Both the position numbers and the translations under genes were made by a program. Shown here piece after piece: positions 41,495 through 49,984 of a stretch of 64,000 bases of DNA. The DNA lies in assembly GCF_029892045.1 (NCBI RefSeq), contig NZ_CP120368.1, positions 1,858,001 through 1,922,000 on the forward strand. Direction: 5' to 3'. The notes beneath the pieces were generated by a model. It worked only from the letters and a program-made list of their open reading frames with translations, was not told the DNA's origin and did not search any database. Source of the DNA: Sinorhizobium numidicum. Its GTDB lineage: Bacteria; Pseudomonadota; Alphaproteobacteria; Rhizobiales; Rhizobiaceae. Position 1 is the first letter of the stretch; each line of letters opens with the position of its first letter.

Positions 41495-42823
41495 TCATCT
41501 AACAAAAGTAGCACGCGGCCGTGATGGAGAGGCAGGCTCTGCAGATCGGCTGGGGCCGCAATAAGCTGACGGATCGGTTGAACGAGGATCCATAAGCGGG
41601 GGATAGTTGATGATGGCCAAGATGACGAAACAGGCTGCGAAGAGTGGTCCCGAGAAGCGGCGCCCGACGTAGCCGGGAGCAGCGGCTGCGAAAAGGAGCA
41701 AAATCCATTGGCTGCTGTAGAGCATCGCCTCGGCAGGATTGAAGTAGAGGTAGAATATGAACAAGCTACCAACTGCCATCAAAGTCCACAGTGTTATCGA
41801 GCGCCGTCGACGGTCGCGCAATGCACTGAAGGCGCCGAAGCTGAGCGCGAACATGACCACGATATAGCCGGCGAGCCTCAATCCAGAACTGCCAAGGGCG
41901 ACAGTCGCCTGCGACGTATACCGGTATTGCACCATGTCGAGCGGCGATACCAAAGCGAAGACCCAGAAGCTTGACAAGTAATCGGCGAGCACATCGGGCG
42001 ATACGAAATTGGCAATGCTCGCTAAACTATCAAGATAATGCCTTTGCCATGCGAAGGCTGCCGCCAAATCCGTATAAAGCATTGGCACCGAGGAGAGAGC
42101 GGTTGCAATGGCTACCGGTAGTGCGAGCACCAAGATGAATCTCTGCCATGGGTTGTCGGATGCAGAAGCTTTGGCCAGTCCAGCGTATAGAAGCACGCAC
42201 GCTAATGCCGGCAGGTTGGCCGTACCAGGAATTGCCCCCGCTATGCCAGCGGATATGGAGCAAAGCACCGGGTGGTTTTTTGAATGTCGCGCAATGACGA
42301 TGAAGGCGAGCATGGCGACAGCCATTGCGCTGAATGTGAAGCCGTAGGTCTCAACGACGCTGAAAATCGTTAAGGAACCAAACGCGAAGATTGCCGCAAG
42401 CACCATGAAAAATGTGGCGCCACATCCTAACCCAAGCAGGCGCAAGTAGAGAAAAAACGCTAGTGATCCGATCGCGACAAAAGCGGCAAGAGCAATAATA
42501 GCCGCGGTCGCAGCTGAAACACCCATCTGCGTGAGTGGCCAGCCAATAGCCGCGATAGACGCGACGGCCAAGGCGTGCTTGCGGATGCGAAAAACGCCCC
42601 AGTGACCACTGGATAGTCCCCGGAAGTAATCACCTACGTCAGCGCCTAGAATACAGTTGTTTACCCGGATTGCTTCGGAGGTGACGCCAAGCCTAATCAG
42701 AAAGTAGCCAAAGACGAGGGCAGTCAGCAGGCCGGCCGACGCCCAGGTTCGGACACCGAACATTCGCAAGCCACCCAAGCCGACCTGATCCTCGGCTATT
42801 CCTGCGATCGTCAATGCGCCCAT
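41495..42823 (-). CDS. polytopic membrane protein, possibly GT-C-type glycosyltransferase
   Basis: A 442-residue protein with about 10-12 hydrophobic segments (for example FGVRTWASAGLLTALVFGYF, AATAAIIALAAFVAIGSLAF, SITLWTLMAVGSLFIFYLY). The long non-membrane loop after the first helix (ILGADVGDYFRGLSSGHWG) contains acidic residues reminiscent of GT-C lipid-linked glycosyltransferases, but no definite motif is present. It overlaps the end of the UbiA gene by about 13 bp, so the two are co-translated. ATG 42823 is chosen; the frame extends to 42853. A partner role in polyprenyl-linked sugar transfer is inference. Confidence 0.65.
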   Translation of the reverse strand: MGALTIAGIAEDQVGLGGLRMFGVRTWASAGLLTALVFGYFLIRLGVTSEAIRVNNCILGADVGDYFRGLSSGHWGVFRIRKHALAVASIAAIGWPLTQMGVSAATAAIIALAAFVAIGSLAFFLYLRLLGLGCGATFFMVLAAIFAFGSLTIFSVVETYGFTFSAMAVAMLAFIVIARHSKNHPVLCSISAGIAGAIPGTANLPALACVLLYAGLAKASASDNPWQRFILVLALPVAIATALSSVPMLYTDLAAAFAWQRHYLDSLASIANFVSPDVLADYLSSFWVFALVSPLDMVQYRYTSQATVALGSSGLRLAGYIVVMFALSFGAFSALRDRRRRSITLWTLMAVGSLFIFYLYFNPAEAMLYSSQWILLLFAAAAPGYVGRRFSGPLFAACFVILAIINYPPLMDPRSTDPSAYCGPSRSAEPASPSRPRATFVR

Positions 42824-44187
42824 TGGAGGATCCCAAAAACGACTGCTCCGCAAAGGAGGCTCTTGGCGTCGGTGGCGGCGAACACAATGGGGTCCTCAAG
42901 CATGTCACCGCGGTGTGTCAACAGAACCATGCGGCCCAGCCAGTATACCAGCACGGGAATAGCGAACCAAAGTGCGCGTGGCGTGCTGTAGACCTCAGTT
43001 TGCACTTCAGACCAAACGAATACGGCATAGATCGTGACCGCACTGAACGCCGCCGACGAGGCGAGCGCGGCTACTACAGAGAAATCCTCGGTTCTGTAGG
43101 AACGGTTGCCAGCTCTTTTCCGTCCGATCTTCATCATGGTGGCAAGTTCAGCCTGTCGCTTAATAAGTGCCAGCGCCAGGAAGAAGAGCGCCGAGAATGC
43201 GATCAGCCACTCGGACAGTCGGATCCCAGTCGCTTCCCCCCCGGCGGCAATTCGGATCGCATAGAGGCAGCCGAGGACGACGACATCGATCATCAGCATG
43301 CGCTTCAGATAAATCGAATAGAGGCAGGTCAGTACGAAATAGACTACCAGCGTAATTTGAAAGCTGATGGCGAGCGGGAGCGCGGCAAAGCAAGCGGCAA
43401 TCAGCAGGGTCGGTATAAGGAAGAGCGCGCTTGCGACCGGCAGCGCGCCGCTTGCAAACGGGCGCAACTTTTTGGTCGGGTGGGCTCTGTCAGCCTGCAG
43501 GTCGAGAAGGTCGTTACAGACGTAGCTGATCGAGGCGACCAGAGAAAATGCCAAAAAGGCAAGTATCGATTGATACCAGTTCTCGGTGGTTGAGACTGGC
43601 GACACCATCACGGGCACGAAGACCAGTACATTCTTGGACCAATGGCGTACTCGGATCGCCGAAATGATCGCGAGGACAGTCGGCCAGACGGGAGCCGCAC
43701 TTTGTCCCGTGTCCGGAAGTTCAACTTTCAAAACGTGAAAATCCGCTGGCGAAGAAATGAGTTCGAAATCGCCGCTAGATAATCCAAGCTCCCGGGCTAC
43801 GCACTTACGGCAGAGGTCCTGATCGTTTTGGCTAGTAGCATCCAGGACCAAACACCTCGAGAATATGCCGTGATACTCACAAACTGCTTTTACAACAGAG
43901 AACGGAAGCGCCGAATATAAAACTAGCTTCCGCCCGTTTTTACGCTCATTTTTCAGGGCGGCTAGAAGATCTTGATTGTACAGGAGGACTCTTGGATCCG
44001 GAGAGCTCTTCTTTTTAGTGTTCCATTGACGGCTTACAAGAAACCCTTTTATACTCGCAGGGAGAGTGAATATCTCTTCTCTTACGAAAATTATTGCGCC
44101 CTCGTGATGAATGTTGCTCCTTAAAAGAGCATGCTCAAGATTGATCACCAAGGGCGGACTTAGCGCGTTTGTGCCGGAATTCTGCAT
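42811..44187 (-). CDS. UbiA-family prenyltransferase with degenerate HAD-like N-terminus
   Basis: A 458-residue two-part protein. The C-terminal ~280 residues are a UbiA-superfamily membrane prenyltransferase with the first Asp-rich motif NDLLDLQAD (225-233) and a second region YLKRMLMIDVVVLG; this branch includes the decaprenyl-phosphate phosphoribosyltransferases. The N-terminal ~160 residues resemble HAD hydrolases found fused to such enzymes, but the nucleophile motif expected as DxDxT reads NLEHA (N16, E18), so phosphatase activity is unlikely. ATG 44187 is preferred; a TTG lies upstream. G+C is lower than the neighbours, especially at the 5' end, suggesting transfer. It is coupled to the membrane gene downstream. 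Confidence 0.85.
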   Translation of the reverse strand: MQNSGTNALSPPLVINLEHALLRSNIHHEGAIIFVREEIFTLPASIKGFLVSRQWNTKKKSSPDPRVLLYNQDLLAALKNERKNGRKLVLYSALPFSVVKAVCEYHGIFSRCLVLDATSQNDQDLCRKCVARELGLSSGDFELISSPADFHVLKVELPDTGQSAAPVWPTVLAIISAIRVRHWSKNVLVFVPVMVSPVSTTENWYQSILAFLAFSLVASISYVCNDLLDLQADRAHPTKKLRPFASGALPVASALFLIPTLLIAACFAALPLAISFQITLVVYFVLTCLYSIYLKRMLMIDVVVLGCLYAIRIAAGGEATGIRLSEWLIAFSALFFLALALIKRQAELATMMKIGRKRAGNRSYRTEDFSVVAALASSAAFSAVTIYAVFVWSEVQTEVYSTPRALWFAIPVLVYWLGRMVLLTHRGDMLEDPIVFAATDAKSLLCGAVVFGILQWAH

Positions 44188-44874
44188 TCGCCGGATCCCA
44201 TAAAACAAACTTAAATAAGGATTAATTTCATCGATTTTTCTTGGAATGTTTTACAGCATACTACATTTCTGCGTTAGCTTATCACTAGCGGTGGCGTTAA
44301 GGCTGCGAAGCGGCTGTAGCTCCTAAAAGATCGCGGCGGTCCTCCTCGCTGCCCGTTGAAGGGTCTTTCGGCATCTCCGAGTGCATCATCACGCAGACCT
44401 CCTGAGCGTCATTACGGGTAATGCGAAGATGAACGCCACAAATATACTGGCATTGCCGAGGGTTCCTGAAAATATAGGGAACTCTATAGGTGCGGAGCGC
44501 ACCGTAGGTTGAGAGCAGCACTGTTACGGCGGGTGGTGTCACGACTGCCAAGCGGCCGCAACTTTTCAAAATTCGCGTCGATCCTCCGGCACGGGCCCGT
44601 CGTGCTCTCAGGCTCGATGATCTGTTCTACGCGTGGCGATGCGTTGGCAAATGGACGCGATTTCGACGAGGTCCGTCCGGCTCTTGCCGTTTGCCCGTTA
44701 TGATCGCCTCAGACCTTTCCTGGGCGGGCATCGAGGAGGTCTCGTGAACGTCATTGTCGAGATGCTCCGGCGGCCCGGCTTTGGCGAGCTCAAAAGCGCA
44801 ACAGTTTTCTCGATCAGCAGATATGGAGATCAAAAGCTACACAGCCGCCAGGACGAGCGGTGAAGCGCATCCGG
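44188..44874. other. AT-rich upstream region and unassigned sequence
   Basis: About 690 bp upstream of the UbiA gene. The part at 44200-44290 is strongly AT-rich and probably contains its promoter. The remainder holds one possible small reverse gene (listed separately) and a 76-codon forward frame at 44633-44863 without recognisable features. Confidence 0.5.
44297..44569 (-). CDS. hypothetical small protein, doubtful
   Basis: A 90-codon reverse frame beginning with TTG at 44569. The predicted protein has a hydrophobic N-terminal third (LAVVTPPAVTVLLSTYGALR) and a polar rest (YIFRNPRQCQYICGVHLRIT, EMPKDPSTGSEEDRRDLLG). Composition is compatible with coding, but there is no convincing ribosome-binding site or recognised family. 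It could be a remnant. Confidence 0.3.
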   Translation of the reverse strand: MKSCGRLAVVTPPAVTVLLSTYGALRTYRVPYIFRNPRQCQYICGVHLRITRNDAQEVCVMMHSEMPKDPSTGSEEDRRDLLGATAASQP

Positions 44875-45639
44875 CTAATGCGCTGTGTAAGCGCCGTCGA
44901 CGAGATGGTAGCTGCCCGTGATGAAACTTGCCTCGTCTGACAGGAGAAAAGACACAAGCGCCGCCACCTCTTCCGGCGTGCCGCGCCTGCCCATTGGCTG
45001 AAGCGCGTCCAAGCGCCGGCTGTTCATTACCTCCCGATGTTCTGACAGAAGCGGTGTCTCGATCCAGCCGGGACCGACTGCGTTGATACGGACGCCAATT
45101 CTTGCGTATTCGATCGCGGCGGCCTTGGTCAGTCCGACGACTCCGTGTTTCGCTGCGGCGTATGCCGAAGCAGTCGGCACAGCAACGGAACCAAGAATGG
45201 AGGACATGTTGACGATGGCGCCTCCGCCCTGCGCGAGTATGGCGGCGATCTCGTATTTCATGCAGTAGAAGACGCCGTTCAGGTTCACGTCAATGATTCT
45301 CTGCCAGTTATCGAGGGGGTAATCCGCAGTCGCCTTCCGCGCGCCTTCGGTTCCGGCGTTGTTGACCGCCAGATGCAACCCGCCGCACTCTCGAACGGCG
45401 AAGTTGACCAACTGCTCCACAGTGCCCGCGTCGGCAACGTCGACCGCAAAATCGCGGGCCCTGCCTCCGGCCGAGCGTATTTCGGCCGCAACCGCAGCGG
45501 CCGCGTCGGCATTGAGATCGGCAACAACGACCTGGGCCCCCTCGTCGCCGAGTCGCCGCGATACGGCCGCGCCGATTCCGGAGCCTGCGCCGGTTACGAT
45601 GGCGACCTTTCCTTCGAAGCGAAGTTTCATCACATCCAT
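44875..45639 (-). CDS. short-chain dehydrogenase/reductase (FabG-like)
   Basis: A 254-residue classical SDR: cofactor loop TGAGSGIG, NNAG motif (AVNNAGTEGA), active-site serine in VNMSSILGSV and an intact YAAAK motif. The C-terminus (FITGSYHLVDGAYTAH) is standard for FabG-like dehydrogenases. D in VVVADLN after the second strand suggests NAD rather than NADP preference. Starts at 45639 and 45630 are both possible. No neighbouring pathway gene defines a substrate; it sits alone at the right edge of the accessory region. Confidence 0.9.
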   Translation of the reverse strand: MDVMKLRFEGKVAIVTGAGSGIGAAVSRRLGDEGAQVVVADLNADAAAAVAAEIRSAGGRARDFAVDVADAGTVEQLVNFAVRECGGLHLAVNNAGTEGARKATADYPLDNWQRIIDVNLNGVFYCMKYEIAAILAQGGGAIVNMSSILGSVAVPTASAYAAAKHGVVGLTKAAAIEYARIGVRINAVGPGWIETPLLSEHREVMNSRRLDALQPMGRRGTPEEVAALVSFLLSDEASFITGSYHLVDGAYTAH

Positions 45640-45950
45640 TCCTGCTTCTATTCCCGGCCTAGTCGAGCAGACGCGGACGGTTGCCGCAACAAGTTTCGTT
45701 CGGTCACAAAAATTGACCCCGGCGCTCGCGCTTTTCTGCGGCACCCGATCCTGGCAGAAATCTCCTGCGCATAGCCACGAAAATGCGAGTTCGGCATGAC
45801 TGCGCGCGGTCCCCCGGGGGATTTTCTGAGGCGTCGCAGTGCTCGTTCTCTGCGCCTCCCTTCCCATCTGCCCGTGCAAGGCTTGGCCGGCACGCGCAGT
45901 GGTGTTAAACACGATTCACGTAGGGAGTCGCAATTGCTTAGCAGGTGAAG
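45640..45950. other. divergent intergenic region, no gene seen
   Basis: About 310 bp between the SDR and the L,D-transpeptidase. It probably contains both promoters. The SDR frame stays open upstream through it, but without a plausible longer protein start. No repeat was recognised. Confidence 0.45.
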
Positions 45951-46535
45951 ATGGACAAGAACCGCGTGACGCGCCGGGTGCTCCTATTGGGCAGTCTGGC
46001 TTTGTTGGGCTCCGGATGCAGTTCGACGTGGGGACCCACGATAAGCCCCATAGCAGCCAAGCCGCGGGTGGACCCGCGGTACCGAAGGCGGGAAGTGCCC
46101 TACAATGGAAGCGAGCCGCCGGGAACGATCGTCGTCGATACAGTGGAGCGCTACCTCTATTACGTCGAGGGCGGCGGCTCGGCGATTCGCTATGGCATCG
46201 GCGTCGGAGAGGAAGGGCGCACTCTTAAGGGCAGAGTGAGGGTCGGCCGCAAGGCGGAATGGCCCTCATGGACGCCGACGGAAAACATGATGCGCCGCAA
46301 GCCGCACCTGCGGCAGTATGCTGGCGGCGTCTCGGGCGGCCTTCACAACCCATTGGGCGCCTCTGCGCTCTATCTCTATCGCGGCGCGGAAGACACCATG
46401 TTCCGGCTGCACGGGACGAACGAGCCGTGGACGATTGGTCAGGCGGTATCGAGCGGTTGCATCCGTCTTACAAACGAGGATATCGTTGATCTTTACGACC
46501 GTGCGCCCGTGGGGACGACGGTATTAATCGTCTGA
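45951..46535 (+). CDS. L,D-transpeptidase (YkuD) lipoprotein
   Basis: A 194-residue envelope enzyme that forms 3-3 cross-links in peptidoglycan or anchors proteins to it. The N-terminus combines arginines (RVTRRVLLLGSLALLGSG) with a lipobox ending in LGSGC. The YkuD catalytic site is complete: HGTNEPW followed by SSGCIRLTNEDI, with the nucleophilic cysteine. The length is typical of short rhizobial YkuD proteins, which occur in many paralogues. ATG 45951 follows AGGTGA; a GTG at 45945 is possible. Confidence 0.93.
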   Translation: MDKNRVTRRVLLLGSLALLGSGCSSTWGPTISPIAAKPRVDPRYRRREVPYNGSEPPGTIVVDTVERYLYYVEGGGSAIRYGIGVGEEGRTLKGRVRVGRKAEWPSWTPTENMMRRKPHLRQYAGGVSGGLHNPLGASALYLYRGAEDTMFRLHGTNEPWTIGQAVSSGCIRLTNEDIVDLYDRAPVGTTVLIV

Positions 46536-46725
46536 TGGTGTTTCTGCTTGTATTTGGGTATAAATAGATGAGCCATGTGTGTTTAGGCCCCGTTGAACGG
46601 TCCCGCAACGACAAACCCGATGCCAACTGTGTCCTTCTTGCACTAGGCTAAGGCCAGAATCGCCATTATTACTTGAAGTGTTGCCTTCGATAACCCATTC
46701 CCACTATTGAGGAAAGGACTTCTTG

Positions 46726-46866
46726 ATGAGCAGAATTCTAGTCGTGATGATTGCGTTGCTTTCTGTTGCCGGTCTTAGCGCCTGCGGTACGATTGGCAAA
46801 GGTAAAGGGAAGGCCCCGCCGCCTGCTGCAGAGGTAGCAGCAGAACCGGCTCCAGTATTTAAATAG
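46726..46866 (+). CDS. tiny lipoprotein
   Basis: A 46-residue predicted lipoprotein. Its signal MSRILVVMIALLSVAGLSAC ends in the lipobox LSAC, and the mature part is short and lysine/proline/alanine-rich (GKGKGKAPPPAAEVAAEPA). GAGGAAAGG lies upstream at acceptable spacing, and a long perfect hairpin follows the stop, so it looks like a complete small transcription unit. No family recognised; similar tiny lipoproteins occur in rhizobia. Confidence 0.78.
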   Translation: MSRILVVMIALLSVAGLSACGTIGKGKGKAPPPAAEVAAEPAPVFK

Positions 46867-46914: not shown

Positions 46915-47016
46915 CAAAATCAGGGCCGAGCCGGCTTTGAGATCGACGGCGTTCCGACGCCAGTAAAGGTAGGCTTAGGCCTGCGCTCATCTGACTTAAG
47001 GATCTAGAGCGTAGTG

Positions 47017-47601
47017 ATGACGCTTGTGCGAAGCCGTATATTCCCAATGATCTTGCTTGTATTCGCGGCAGCAGGATGTCAGTCGCAAGACAAGACGCCC
47101 GAACCGCGTTTCGTGTCGAGCAGCCCGGGCGCCCCGGCCAAACTTTTATCCGAAAGCCGGGAAGAAGGTTATTTCATCGAGTTTCGCTCGCGCTACGCAC
47201 TGAGCTACGGGCACACCTATGTCGTTTTCGGGCGCGCGACCAAGTCCGGCGCGATGATCAACCCAGAGGTTGCAGGGCTTGCCCCCGCTTCGAACGATCC
47301 CACGCCGTATGTTTTCGGGCATTTCGTGCCGGTCCCAGCGGAAACGGGCTTGAGCGATGGCGACTTGGAAGAAGAATACAGGTCGGCGAGCTGGCGTGTC
47401 ATGCTTACCGAGCCGGAATACAGGAAGGTCGTTGCGGACATTCGCAAGCTGAAGGAGAAGTCTCGCTTTTGGCATGCGACCTTCTATAACTGCAACGCCT
47501 TCGTGGCGGACATCGCGCGCTCTATGGGATATAAGACTCCCGGCATCTGGCTCAGGCCGCAAGAATTCATTACAAAGCTTCGGGAAATGAACGGGGGGTG
47601 A
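47017..47601 (+). CDS. lipoprotein of unknown function
   Basis: A 194-residue protein with a lipoprotein signal (FPMILLVFAAAGC). The mature region contains LSYGHTYVVFGRA and FWHATFYNCNAFVADIARSMG. The pairing of a conserved-looking His with a Cys in YNCNAFVADIA resembles the arrangement in papain-like/NlpC-type folds (circularly permuted forms), but this is a tentative reading. Start: ATG 47017 or the adjacent GTG 47014. It precedes the ICMT-like gene by about 140 bp. Confidence 0.72.
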   Translation: MTLVRSRIFPMILLVFAAAGCQSQDKTPEPRFVSSSPGAPAKLLSESREEGYFIEFRSRYALSYGHTYVVFGRATKSGAMINPEVAGLAPASNDPTPYVFGHFVPVPAETGLSDGDLEEEYRSASWRVMLTEPEYRKVVADIRKLKEKSRFWHATFYNCNAFVADIARSMGYKTPGIWLRPQEFITKLREMNGG

Positions 47602-47740: not shown

Positions 47741-48334
47741 GTGAGCATGTCGGTAGCTTCCGTCGGTGAGATTTTTTGGGTACTCGGGATCATCGCCTGG
47801 TACTTCATCCGGCGTCCTTACGAGCGCCGCGCCAAGCGCGTGCGGGTGGTCAGCCACCGCCGCTCACCTTCCGAGATAGCCGGGCTTGCGGCCGCCCTGC
47901 TTGGCCTTGCCATCATACCCGGGTTTTACGTTGCCAGCGGCATGCCGGAAGCGGCCGACTACCCTGCCCGCCCATGGGCCGTGGCTGTCGGGGCGATGAT
48001 CTTCTTCGCCGCAATGTGGGTCTTTCGCAGAACCCACAAGGAGCTCGGCCGGAATTGGTCCGTCACGCTGGAGATTCGCGACCAGCATGAACTGGTTTGC
48101 GGGGGGCCTTACGTCCTCGTCCGCCATCCCATGTACACTTCTTTCCTGCTCATGGGGCTTGGCCAGGCCTTTCTATTGTCGAACTGGGTCGCCGGGCTCT
48201 CGGGCTTGATCGGCTTCGCTGTGCTTTTTCTTCTAAGGGTGGACGAGGAGGAGCGTATGATGTTGGAAATATTCGGCTCGCGTTATCGCTCCTATATGGA
48301 GAGAACCAAGCGAATTATCCCTTATCTGTACTAG
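47741..48334 (+). CDS. isoprenylcysteine carboxyl methyltransferase-like membrane protein
   Basis: A 197-residue integral membrane methyltransferase of the ICMT/PEMT type. Four to five hydrophobic segments are followed by the SAM-binding signature GGPYVLVRHPMYTSFLLMG and the C-terminal EERMMLEIFGSRYRSYMERT, both standard for the family. Bacterial members methylate lipids or small hydrophobic acids; protein isoprenylcysteine is not expected in bacteria. Start 47741 (GTG) or 47747 (ATG). It is followed after 7 bp by an E2-like acyltransferase and then an SDR, suggesting a small lipid-modifying operon (inference). Confidence 0.88.
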   Translation: MSMSVASVGEIFWVLGIIAWYFIRRPYERRAKRVRVVSHRRSPSEIAGLAAALLGLAIIPGFYVASGMPEAADYPARPWAVAVGAMIFFAAMWVFRRTHKELGRNWSVTLEIRDQHELVCGGPYVLVRHPMYTSFLLMGLGQAFLLSNWVAGLSGLIGFAVLFLLRVDEEERMMLEIFGSRYRSYMERTKRIIPYLY

Positions 48335-48341
48335 AGGTGGC

Positions 48342-49127
48342 ATGATGCGCGGCCGAGCTCTCAAGCTTTCGGCGCCACGGCGCCTCGTTTGTGATCTGAT
48401 GAGGTTCTCGATCGGGGTGCCGCGGGTCACCGTGCAGCGGCAGATGAATCTCGGTCCGCTCCAAGAGAGCAGGGTGGCTCAGCAAAGCAGACCGTCCTGG
48501 ACGGTGCTTTTCCTGAAGGGTTACGCGCTTCTTGCCCTGGAGACGCCGGAGTTGCGGCGCGCTTATGTCAAGCTGCCAAGGCCGCAGCTCTATGAATATC
48601 CTGCAAACGTCGCCTCCATTGCCCACGAGCGCGAGCATCACGGCGAACGGGTTGTGCTGCTGAGTACTATCAAAAGTCCCGAGCGCCGATCGATCGGCGA
48701 ATTGGGAGCATTGATTCACGCGGCCCGAACACGTCCCGTGCTTGAGATCAAGGAGTTCCGGCGCGCCTTGAAGGTTGCCCGCATGCCGGGGCCCATCAGA
48801 TGGCTGCTGATGTGGCTTGGGCTGAATATCGGGCGGCAGCGGGCGCGCCATTTCGGCACGTTTCAACTGTCGGTCTATTCCGGCCTCGGGGCAGAGTCCC
48901 TCAACCCGCTCACGCCCTTGACCACCCTCCTCAATTACGGCCCGATCGACGAGGATGGATCGGTGAGTGTCCGCATCCACTACGATCACCGGGTCATGGA
49001 TGGCGCCAACGTGGCGCGAGCCCTGGAGCGGTTCGAAGAAATCCTGAACGGCGAAATCACCGCTGAAGTGCAAGGCCTTGCTCAAAGCGAAAGCGTTCCG
49101 GCCGCCGCGTCAAGGGTCGCAACATGA
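48342..49127 (+). CDS. stand-alone 2-oxoacid dehydrogenase E2-type acyltransferase domain
   Basis: A 261-residue protein with the chloramphenicol acetyltransferase-like fold of E2 catalytic domains. The signature YDHRVMDGANVARAL near residues 212-226 contains the DHRxxDG active-site motif with its histidine. No lipoyl or subunit-binding domain is present, so it is not a normal dehydrogenase-complex component. The N-terminal part (VPRVTVQRQMNLG) resembles the start of E2 catalytic cores. It overlaps the downstream SDR by ATGA and follows the ICMT-like gene closely, so all three are probably co-expressed. The acyl donor and acceptor are unknown. Confidence 0.83.
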   Translation: MMRGRALKLSAPRRLVCDLMRFSIGVPRVTVQRQMNLGPLQESRVAQQSRPSWTVLFLKGYALLALETPELRRAYVKLPRPQLYEYPANVASIAHEREHHGERVVLLSTIKSPERRSIGELGALIHAARTRPVLEIKEFRRALKVARMPGPIRWLLMWLGLNIGRQRARHFGTFQLSVYSGLGAESLNPLTPLTTLLNYGPIDEDGSVSVRIHYDHRVMDGANVARALERFEEILNGEITAEVQGLAQSESVPAAASRVAT

Positions 49128-49984
49128 CCCTGCACAGCCTGGTCCGGCCGGCCGTCGTCGTGGTCGGCGCGTCACGCGGCATTGGGAAGGCCATTGCCGA
49201 AGTCGCTGCGAAGGAGGGAGCTACCGTCGTTTTGGTGGCACGTTCGCCTGAGGGGCTTGCCGCGGCCGCAACCGACATCCGGAAGGCGGGCGGCGAGGCA
49301 ATCACGTTGGCGTTGGATCTCATGGCCGAGGACGCAGCGGCGCGCCTGGAGGACTTCCTTTCCGCAAACAGCTTGATGTGCGATGTCCTCGTCAACAGTG
49401 CCGGCTATGGCTTGCGCGGCGGCGCGACGGTGCTCCCTGTCGATGATCAGCTTGGGATCATTGATCTCAACATACGCGCCCTTACCCATCTTACTTTGCA
49501 CTTTCTGCCAGGCATGGTGGCGCGCGGGCGTGGCGGCGTCATCAATCTCGGTTCCGTCGCCAGCTTCACTCCCGGTCCCTATATGGCGTTGTACTATGCC
49601 AGCAAGGGCTTCGTGCGCTCCTTTTCGGAAGCGCTTCATCAAGAACTGCGCGGCACCAGCGTGACCGTCACCTGTGTCGCCCCCGGCCCGGTATCAACAG
49701 AATTTCTTGAAAAGTCCGGCGCCAATCGGGCGGCATTGTTCAAGATCTTGCCGAAGCTCGATTCCGAGTACGTGGCCGAACGCGCGTGGCACGGATTCAA
49801 ATCCGGTCGTCGCCTCGTCGTGCCAGGCATCTCCGCCAAGTTGACCGCTTTTGTGGCGGCGTTGTTACCCTCCGCAGTCATGCTGCCGCTGATCGGCCGC
49901 TTGCAGCGCAGGAGCAATGACCCGTGCCCATGCGGTTCGGGTAAGAAGTTCAAGGCATGCTGCGGTGCCCGCAGCAACTCTTAG
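49124..49984 (+). CDS. short-chain dehydrogenase with C-terminal SEC-C zinc motif
   Basis: A 286-residue SDR with an intact fold: cofactor loop GASRGIG, NSAG motif, serine in LGSVASFTPG and the YASKG active site. After a hydrophobic stretch (LTAFVAALLPSAVMLPLIG) the protein ends with DPCPCGSGKKFKACCG, a complete SEC-C motif (C268, C270, C279, C280) like the zinc tail of SecA. SDRs normally end before such a motif, so this is a fusion. The start overlaps the E2-like gene by ATGA. It may target the enzyme to ribosomes, SecB or membranes by analogy with SecA, which is inference. Confidence 0.92.
   Translation: MTLHSLVRPAVVVVGASRGIGKAIAEVAAKEGATVVLVARSPEGLAAAATDIRKAGGEAITLALDLMAEDAAARLEDFLSANSLMCDVLVNSAGYGLRGGATVLPVDDQLGIIDLNIRALTHLTLHFLPGMVARGRGGVINLGSVASFTPGPYMALYYASKGFVRSFSEALHQELRGTSVTVTCVAPGPVSTEFLEKSGANRAALFKILPKLDSEYVAERAWHGFKSGRRLVVPGISAKLTAFVAALLPSAVMLPLIGRLQRRSNDPCPCGSGKKFKACCGARSNS

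Follow-up and report, generated by a model that had tools for sequence, protein, structure and literature searches.

A conserved seven-gene cassette of rhizobia and its possible role in the cell envelope

What might a membrane methyltransferase, a free-standing acyltransferase domain and a short-chain dehydrogenase (SDR) do together? The question is raised by three adjacent genes in a 64,000-nucleotide stretch of Sinorhizobium numidicum DNA, here called the window (genome of 3 contigs, 6.72 Mb in all, with Sinorhizobium/Ensifer as the closest named protein and plasmid matches). A preliminary description had taken this trio for an operon whose products could act on lipids or hydrophobic acids, possibly together with a nearby lipoprotein. 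Its arrangement is as described, with all open reading frames on the + strand: ICMT is followed after a 7-bp gap by the E2-like gene, which overlaps SDR1 at an ATGA. Profile scores also agree with the family calls (ICMT/PEMT, a PF00198 match, and SDR with SEC-C). The earlier reading is nevertheless only partly supported; the trio is real, but it forms the 3′ end of a block of seven genes. Overlooked were a 46-aa lipoprotein (46726-46866) and the link to an upstream L,D-transpeptidase and a divergent SDR. The features are as follows:

44875..45630, − strand: SDR2, divergent short-chain dehydrogenase, 251 aa (PF13561, 215.3 bits)
45945..46535, + strand: LDT, YkuD L,D-transpeptidase with a lipoprotein-type signal (PF03734, 86.4 bits)
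46635..46725, + strand: conserved non-coding block 5′ of sLP (TGCACTAGGC ... GTTGCCTTCGATAACC)
46726..46866, + strand: sLP, 46-aa lipoprotein with lipobox Cys20, a GKGKGK-APPP motif and Lys at the C-terminus
47014..47601, + strand: LP, lipoprotein with a predicted permuted papain-like domain and the conserved residues His67 and Cys160
47741..48334, + strand: ICMT, ICMT/PEMT-family membrane methyltransferase (NF040696, PF04140, 4a2n)
48342..49127, + strand: E2-like free acyltransferase domain without a lipoyl domain, His216/Asp220
49124..49984, + strand: SDR1, short-chain dehydrogenase with a SEC-C tail (tail 49916-49966)

The true start of SDR2 gives 251 aa, the longer ORF reaching to 45912 being an over-extension; the gene is annotated as an SDR or glucose 1-dehydrogenase in three relatives (L183-L185). 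A UbiA-family prenyltransferase is encoded elsewhere in the window (42811-44208, − strand; NF006088, 394 bits, cut-off 351).

Within the genus, the E2-like protein was found in 31 of 32 other genomes, the single miss being a 70% complete genome, and in 0 of 27 genomes beyond the genus in the same sample. The co-occurrence proposed as a check holds in close relatives: LP, ICMT, E2-like and SDR1 lie together in 30/30 same-genus loci (covering 30 of the 32 matches, one of which is the window's own). A search of named genomes by E2-like similarity gave 116 relatives, and the analysis went on with the best 80 (identity at least 74%); having been chosen by E2 similarity, these cannot tell how common the envelope genes are away from the trio. 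Among the best 80 of 116, the full seven-gene set is recognizable by similarity in 73 (a count that includes L080, whose LDT match spans 37 aa only). ICMT and E2-like are present in 80/80, as is LP, the lipoprotein at 47014/47017 that had been suggested as a partner of the trio; sLP is present in 79, LDT in 78, SDR1 in 77 and SDR2 in 74 (at ≥45% identity), and one ICMT reads 110 aa only. Spacing within the same best 80 of 116 loci is also retained, with an ICMT-E2 gap of 7 bp in 37/80 and 10 bp in 19/80, and a 4-bp E2-SDR1 overlap in 71 of the 77 loci with SDR1. The outer neighbours are not kept (UbiA 0/80, DUF4864 5/80), and single-linkage clustering of the flanks yields 28 upstream contexts (71 loci) and 28 downstream contexts (75 loci). 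In some strains the cassette sits on records deposited as plasmids; a further record carrying it is called pSymB but measures 3.7 Mb. Across all seven genes, dN/dS is 0.058-0.176 (five pairwise comparisons per gene). Judged from sequence, it is nearly certain that the seven genes form a unit that is kept together at many genomic positions. One Mesorhizobium prunaredense genome carries two loci (L142, L126); SDR1, SDR2 and the L,D-transpeptidase of L142 fall below the thresholds used.

The 5′ half of the block resembles known machinery for tethering the outer membrane to the wall. The mature sLP has 27 residues in the window and about 20-29 across orthologs; it is Gly- and Pro-rich, with a lipobox Cys, the GKGKGK-APPP stretch and a Pro/Ala/Glu linker of variable length. 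A terminal Lys occurs in 79/79 cassette orthologs (69 distinct; from the best 80 of 116 loci), and the distinct sequences encode it by AAG (51) or AAA (18); all 69 have the lipobox Cys. In LDT orthologs drawn from the best 80 of 116 loci, the HG..SxGCxR motif is retained in 78/79 and a lipobox-like pattern in 66/79. This pairing of a small Lys-ending lipoprotein with a YkuD enzyme is similar to Braun Lpp and LdtA/B/C of E. coli. The mature part of Lpp is longer and helical, whereas sLP is short, has the GKGK-PPP stretch and lacks a long helix; the likeness comes without a shown sequence relation. In E. coli, L,D-transpeptidases are reported to link the epsilon-amino group of the C-terminal Lys of Lpp (PMC8263019), a precedent that the invariant terminal Lys of sLP fits as an LDT acceptor. 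According to a review and a research paper (PMC10787603, PMC11527210), Brucella, Agrobacterium and related Rhizobiales lack Lpp and use OMPs to tether the outer membrane. These LDT-made wall tethers belong to the same order; the OMPs are reportedly linked by their N-terminal residues (PMC10787603, PMC8263019), whereas the C-terminus is proposed for sLP. LDT would join the terminal Lys of sLP to peptidoglycan, making sLP a short outer membrane-to-wall tether; that LDT performs this linkage is a tentative proposal, quite possible if short of probable.

A terminal Lys is not universal among sLP homologs, a candidate rule excluded by 13 loci outside the cassette, where the C-terminus is Lys in 2, VTKG in 6, SKY in 2 and ADG/TNG in 3. 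One paper describes attachment of LimB through an internal Lys, so the Lys, VTKG and SKY classes may still be acceptors. In the three sLPs ending in ADG/TNG, neither of the last two residues is Lys, and a YkuD gene lies near each.

For the trio, family membership is clearer than substrate. ICMT scores 251.5 bits with NF040696 (cut-off 160) and 51.3 bits with PF04140, and matches the Methanosarcina ICMT orthologue 4a2n over residues 10-195 (112.5 bits), a near full-length match; RHPMY is conserved in 79/80 orthologs (best 80 of 116 loci). The NF040696 name, protein-S-isoprenylcysteine O-methyltransferase, is an annotation, however, and a prenylated-Cys substrate is putative only here. SDR1 matches PF00106 (adh_short, 150.6 bits) and, at residues 265-281, PF02810 (SEC-C, 37.0 bits); its score with the mycolate reductase SDR family NF040690, 168.9 bits, is below the cut-off of 380, and that identity was rejected. 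The SEC-C pattern is present in 73/77 SDR1 orthologs from the best 80 of 116 loci. In L112, L123, L138 and L145, SDR1 stops ahead of the motif, and the zinc-type tail looks dispensable in these four.

The E2-like protein (261 aa) matches PF00198 at residues 207-236 only (24.2 bits, cut-off 23), a segment that contains DHRVMDG, which is found in 80/80 orthologs (best 80 of 116 loci). No lipoyl domain appears among its Pfam matches at E up to 1, and when the genome was searched with PF00198, three other loci came up but this gene did not. Structure prediction agrees with the acyltransferase fold suggested earlier: a confident model has the E2 catalytic (CAT-like) fold with the predicted catalytic His/Asp. 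The CAT-like catalytic domain with DHRxxDG is common to this protein and to the E2 components of 2-oxoacid dehydrogenase complexes; it differs from them in lacking a lipoyl domain, in having an extra helical stretch (~137-170) and in its low identity, 14-22% in the comparisons shown. Chloramphenicol acetyltransferase, which carries HHxxxDG, was rejected as an identity, as the E2-like protein does not have that motif.

Gene content, order and conservation of the unit are thus established by comparison, and folds and active-site residues as far as alignments and predicted models carry. What joins the two halves is more tentative. The reading preferred here, quite possible and held with considerable reserve, is that the trio is the 3′ half of a rhizobial seven-gene cell-envelope cassette combining a tether with lipid tailoring. 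Three enzymes would tailor a hydrophobic substrate, acyl or lipid, for the same envelope function in the cytosol or inner membrane: ICMT as a membrane enzyme using SAM, the E2-like protein as an acyltransferase and SDR1 as a keto reductase. This lipid-tailoring step is conceivable but doubtful.

No description of the cassette as such was found in the literature searched; of the locus tags looked for, occurrences came only from PMC2396165 and PMC2573895, plus PMC3568095 for tgt. Two unannotated genes of S. meliloti 1021 were reported in 2008 as confirmed by RT-PCR (PMC2396165): one of 141 nt that shares a transcript with SMc01200 and SMc01202, and one of 789 nt that shares a transcript with the downstream SMc01204. 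For the 789-nt gene no upstream partner is listed in the text available, so two transcripts are possible. From length, strand, spacing and the position of tgt (SMc01206; PMC3568095), we assign the 141-nt gene to sLP and the 789-nt gene to E2-like. In L183, an S. meliloti strain, the sLP gene measures 141 nt and E2-like 789 nt if read from 9001 (annotated 786), with a start-to-start spacing of 1616 as against 1614 in strain 1021. A predicted sRNA candidate, sm6 (1021 chromosome, 1728021-1728269), is reported at a position that spans the 141-nt gene (PMC2573895) and may simply be the sLP message.

The conserved block at 46635-46725 may hold a promoter or leader; among LDT-sLP spacers, GCACTAGGC occurs in 49/78 and TGCCTTCGA in 45/78. 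A heat-shock (RpoH-like) promoter 5′ of sLP, visible by eye in the window, was rejected: 4/78 spacers carry the stricter pattern, against a mean of 0.25 and a maximum of 2 in shuffles, and 3/78 carry the looser one, against a mean of 1.2. In the SDR2-LDT spacer, an RpoE2-type motif on one strand is found in 6/73 against a shuffled mean of 1.8, and a sigma-70-like pattern in 7/73 against 0.8 shuffled. A TGTC-N4-8-GACA palindrome is present in 10/78 LP-ICMT spacers (0.2 shuffled).

The wider distribution bears on whether the halves belong together. At the order level, the E2-like protein occurs in 18/297 genomes, the window's own included. Among the 17 further regions (L056-L072), the full cassette is present in L056 and L057; L059, a 3.4-kb contig from another family, has E2, SDR (29%) and ICMT (46%) in a new gene order; L069 and L070 (genus taken as Bradyrhizobium) have an SDR1 relative nearby (46-48%) without SEC-C; and in the remaining 12 neither ICMT nor LP nor an SDR1 relative was seen, although L058 and L060 carry distant SDRs. 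Outside the cassette type, ICMT is absent from 14/15 order-level E2 loci, and both ICMT and an SDR1 relative from 12, which counts against the preferred reading. ICMT lies within 3 kb of a non-cassette E2-like gene in 2/16 cases (L059, L246; expected 0.0045, P 0.002), a P value that is optimistic, as the rate comes from one genome and the L246 gene passes the PEMT cut-off, not that of ICMT, with a reverse gene between. At the class level, 93/387 genomes match the E2 profile, full length in G000, G069 and G525 only among the matches listed; the remaining matches, except G412 (92-225), begin no earlier than profile position 150, as ordinary E2 proteins would, and were left uncounted. G525 is the sole full-length case outside the order in that search, with a PEMT-family gene ~1.4 kb away.

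Among 199 family genomes, the full-length E2-like protein is found in 21 and an sLP match in 41. Since all 21 fall within the 41, the range of sLP is wider than that of the trio. (G810, at 26% identity to E2-like a would-be 22nd genome, and L283, a 177-aa ORF, were dropped as untrue members; sLP places numbered 46, with 30 loci covered.) LP adjoins sLP in 12 of the 13 non-cassette sLP loci (exception L257), and no ICMT or E2 was seen within their 1.5-kb flanks; L267 has an SDR at 30% identity, and the longer stretch of L282, L235, carries ICMT 1.3 kb past LP. On R. leguminosarum-group plasmids, L249 retains SDR2, LDT, sLP, LP, ICMT and a fragment of E2; in L247 and L250 all that is left besides sLP and LP is YkuD residues 141-183, with no trio in 10 kb; and in L248 only sLP and LP remain (10-kb stretch). 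The sLP-LP pair is the part that persists longest in this decay series.

These patterns bring in the main rival, that linkage alone keeps two modules at one address: LDT-sLP-LP for the envelope, and ICMT-E2-SDR1 for a small molecule, either a metabolite that is O-methylated and acylated or a derivative of a fatty acid. Somewhat unlikely in our estimation, it draws on the sLP-LP pairs without ICMT or E2 in the flank (12/13 non-cassette loci), their survival on the plasmids after trio loss, the E2-SDR-ICMT group of L059 without sLP or LP, and the S. meliloti transcripts, reported as separate (PMC2396165). It also draws on the distant E2-like gene of L060, whose preceding genes encode a histone-deacetylase-family protein, an SDR, an enoyl-CoA hydratase and an acyl-CoA dehydrogenase (L060:7600-12766). 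Against mere linkage, gene order is held through 28 contexts per side, and in two other families LP is again found with ICMT: LP, present in 13/199 order genomes, adjoins ICMT in L236, where the start of an E2-like gene then reaches the contig end, and lies near it in L235 with one ORF between. That ORF (L235:7114-8331, 406 aa) has no Pfam match at E≤0.01.

LP has an invariant His and Cys and no Pfam family above cut-off. Its model is permuted papain-like, with His before Asn-Cys, which would place it in the NlpC/P60-LRAT superfamily. In model and in His-before-Cys order it resembles 6v98 (TseH), 6r99 (CLN5) and 3kw0, which, like Lnb_N, we take to belong to one superfamily, at ≤15% identity in those comparisons with permuted papain-like structures; the model matches listed include no Lnb structure. 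LP would act on sLP or its lipid by acyl transfer, trimming or release. A further alternative makes LP an Lnb/LRAT-like acyltransferase of sLP, modifying its N-terminus or the GKGKGK lysines with an unusual acyl group supplied by the trio, wall linkage being secondary. This is distinctly unlikely: membership in Lnb_N (PF13387) was rejected at 16.8 bits against a cut-off of 22.2, with matches in 5/28 LP sequences at E≤0.1; the best fold match, 6v98, is a cysteine hydrolase; and no acyl donor is known.

The least probable rival is drift, in which the trio would be no more than a generic ICMT-like protein, a degenerate E2 domain and a generic SDR that share no pathway. In its favour, the families are large (5 ICMT and 71 SDR matches in the genome), PF00198 similarity is confined to the last third of E2-like and ICMT is split across two frames in one S. 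meliloti strain (L183). Against it, the dN/dS values indicate purifying selection, spacing and overlap are conserved, catalytic residues are invariant, and the genes stay together in many contexts.

Within the favoured reading of a single cell-envelope cassette, a more specific version, in which a miniature Braun-type lipoprotein and its own LDT travel on a relocating cassette and LP loads a trio-made acyl group to give a tuned tether, appears quite improbable. The Lys-ending lipoprotein beside an LDT makes an Lpp-like tether testable in an order said to lack Lpp. The cassette also gives the three enzymes of the trio a concrete cellular setting, and one of its members is an E2 catalytic domain on its own, for which the predicted structure is confident.
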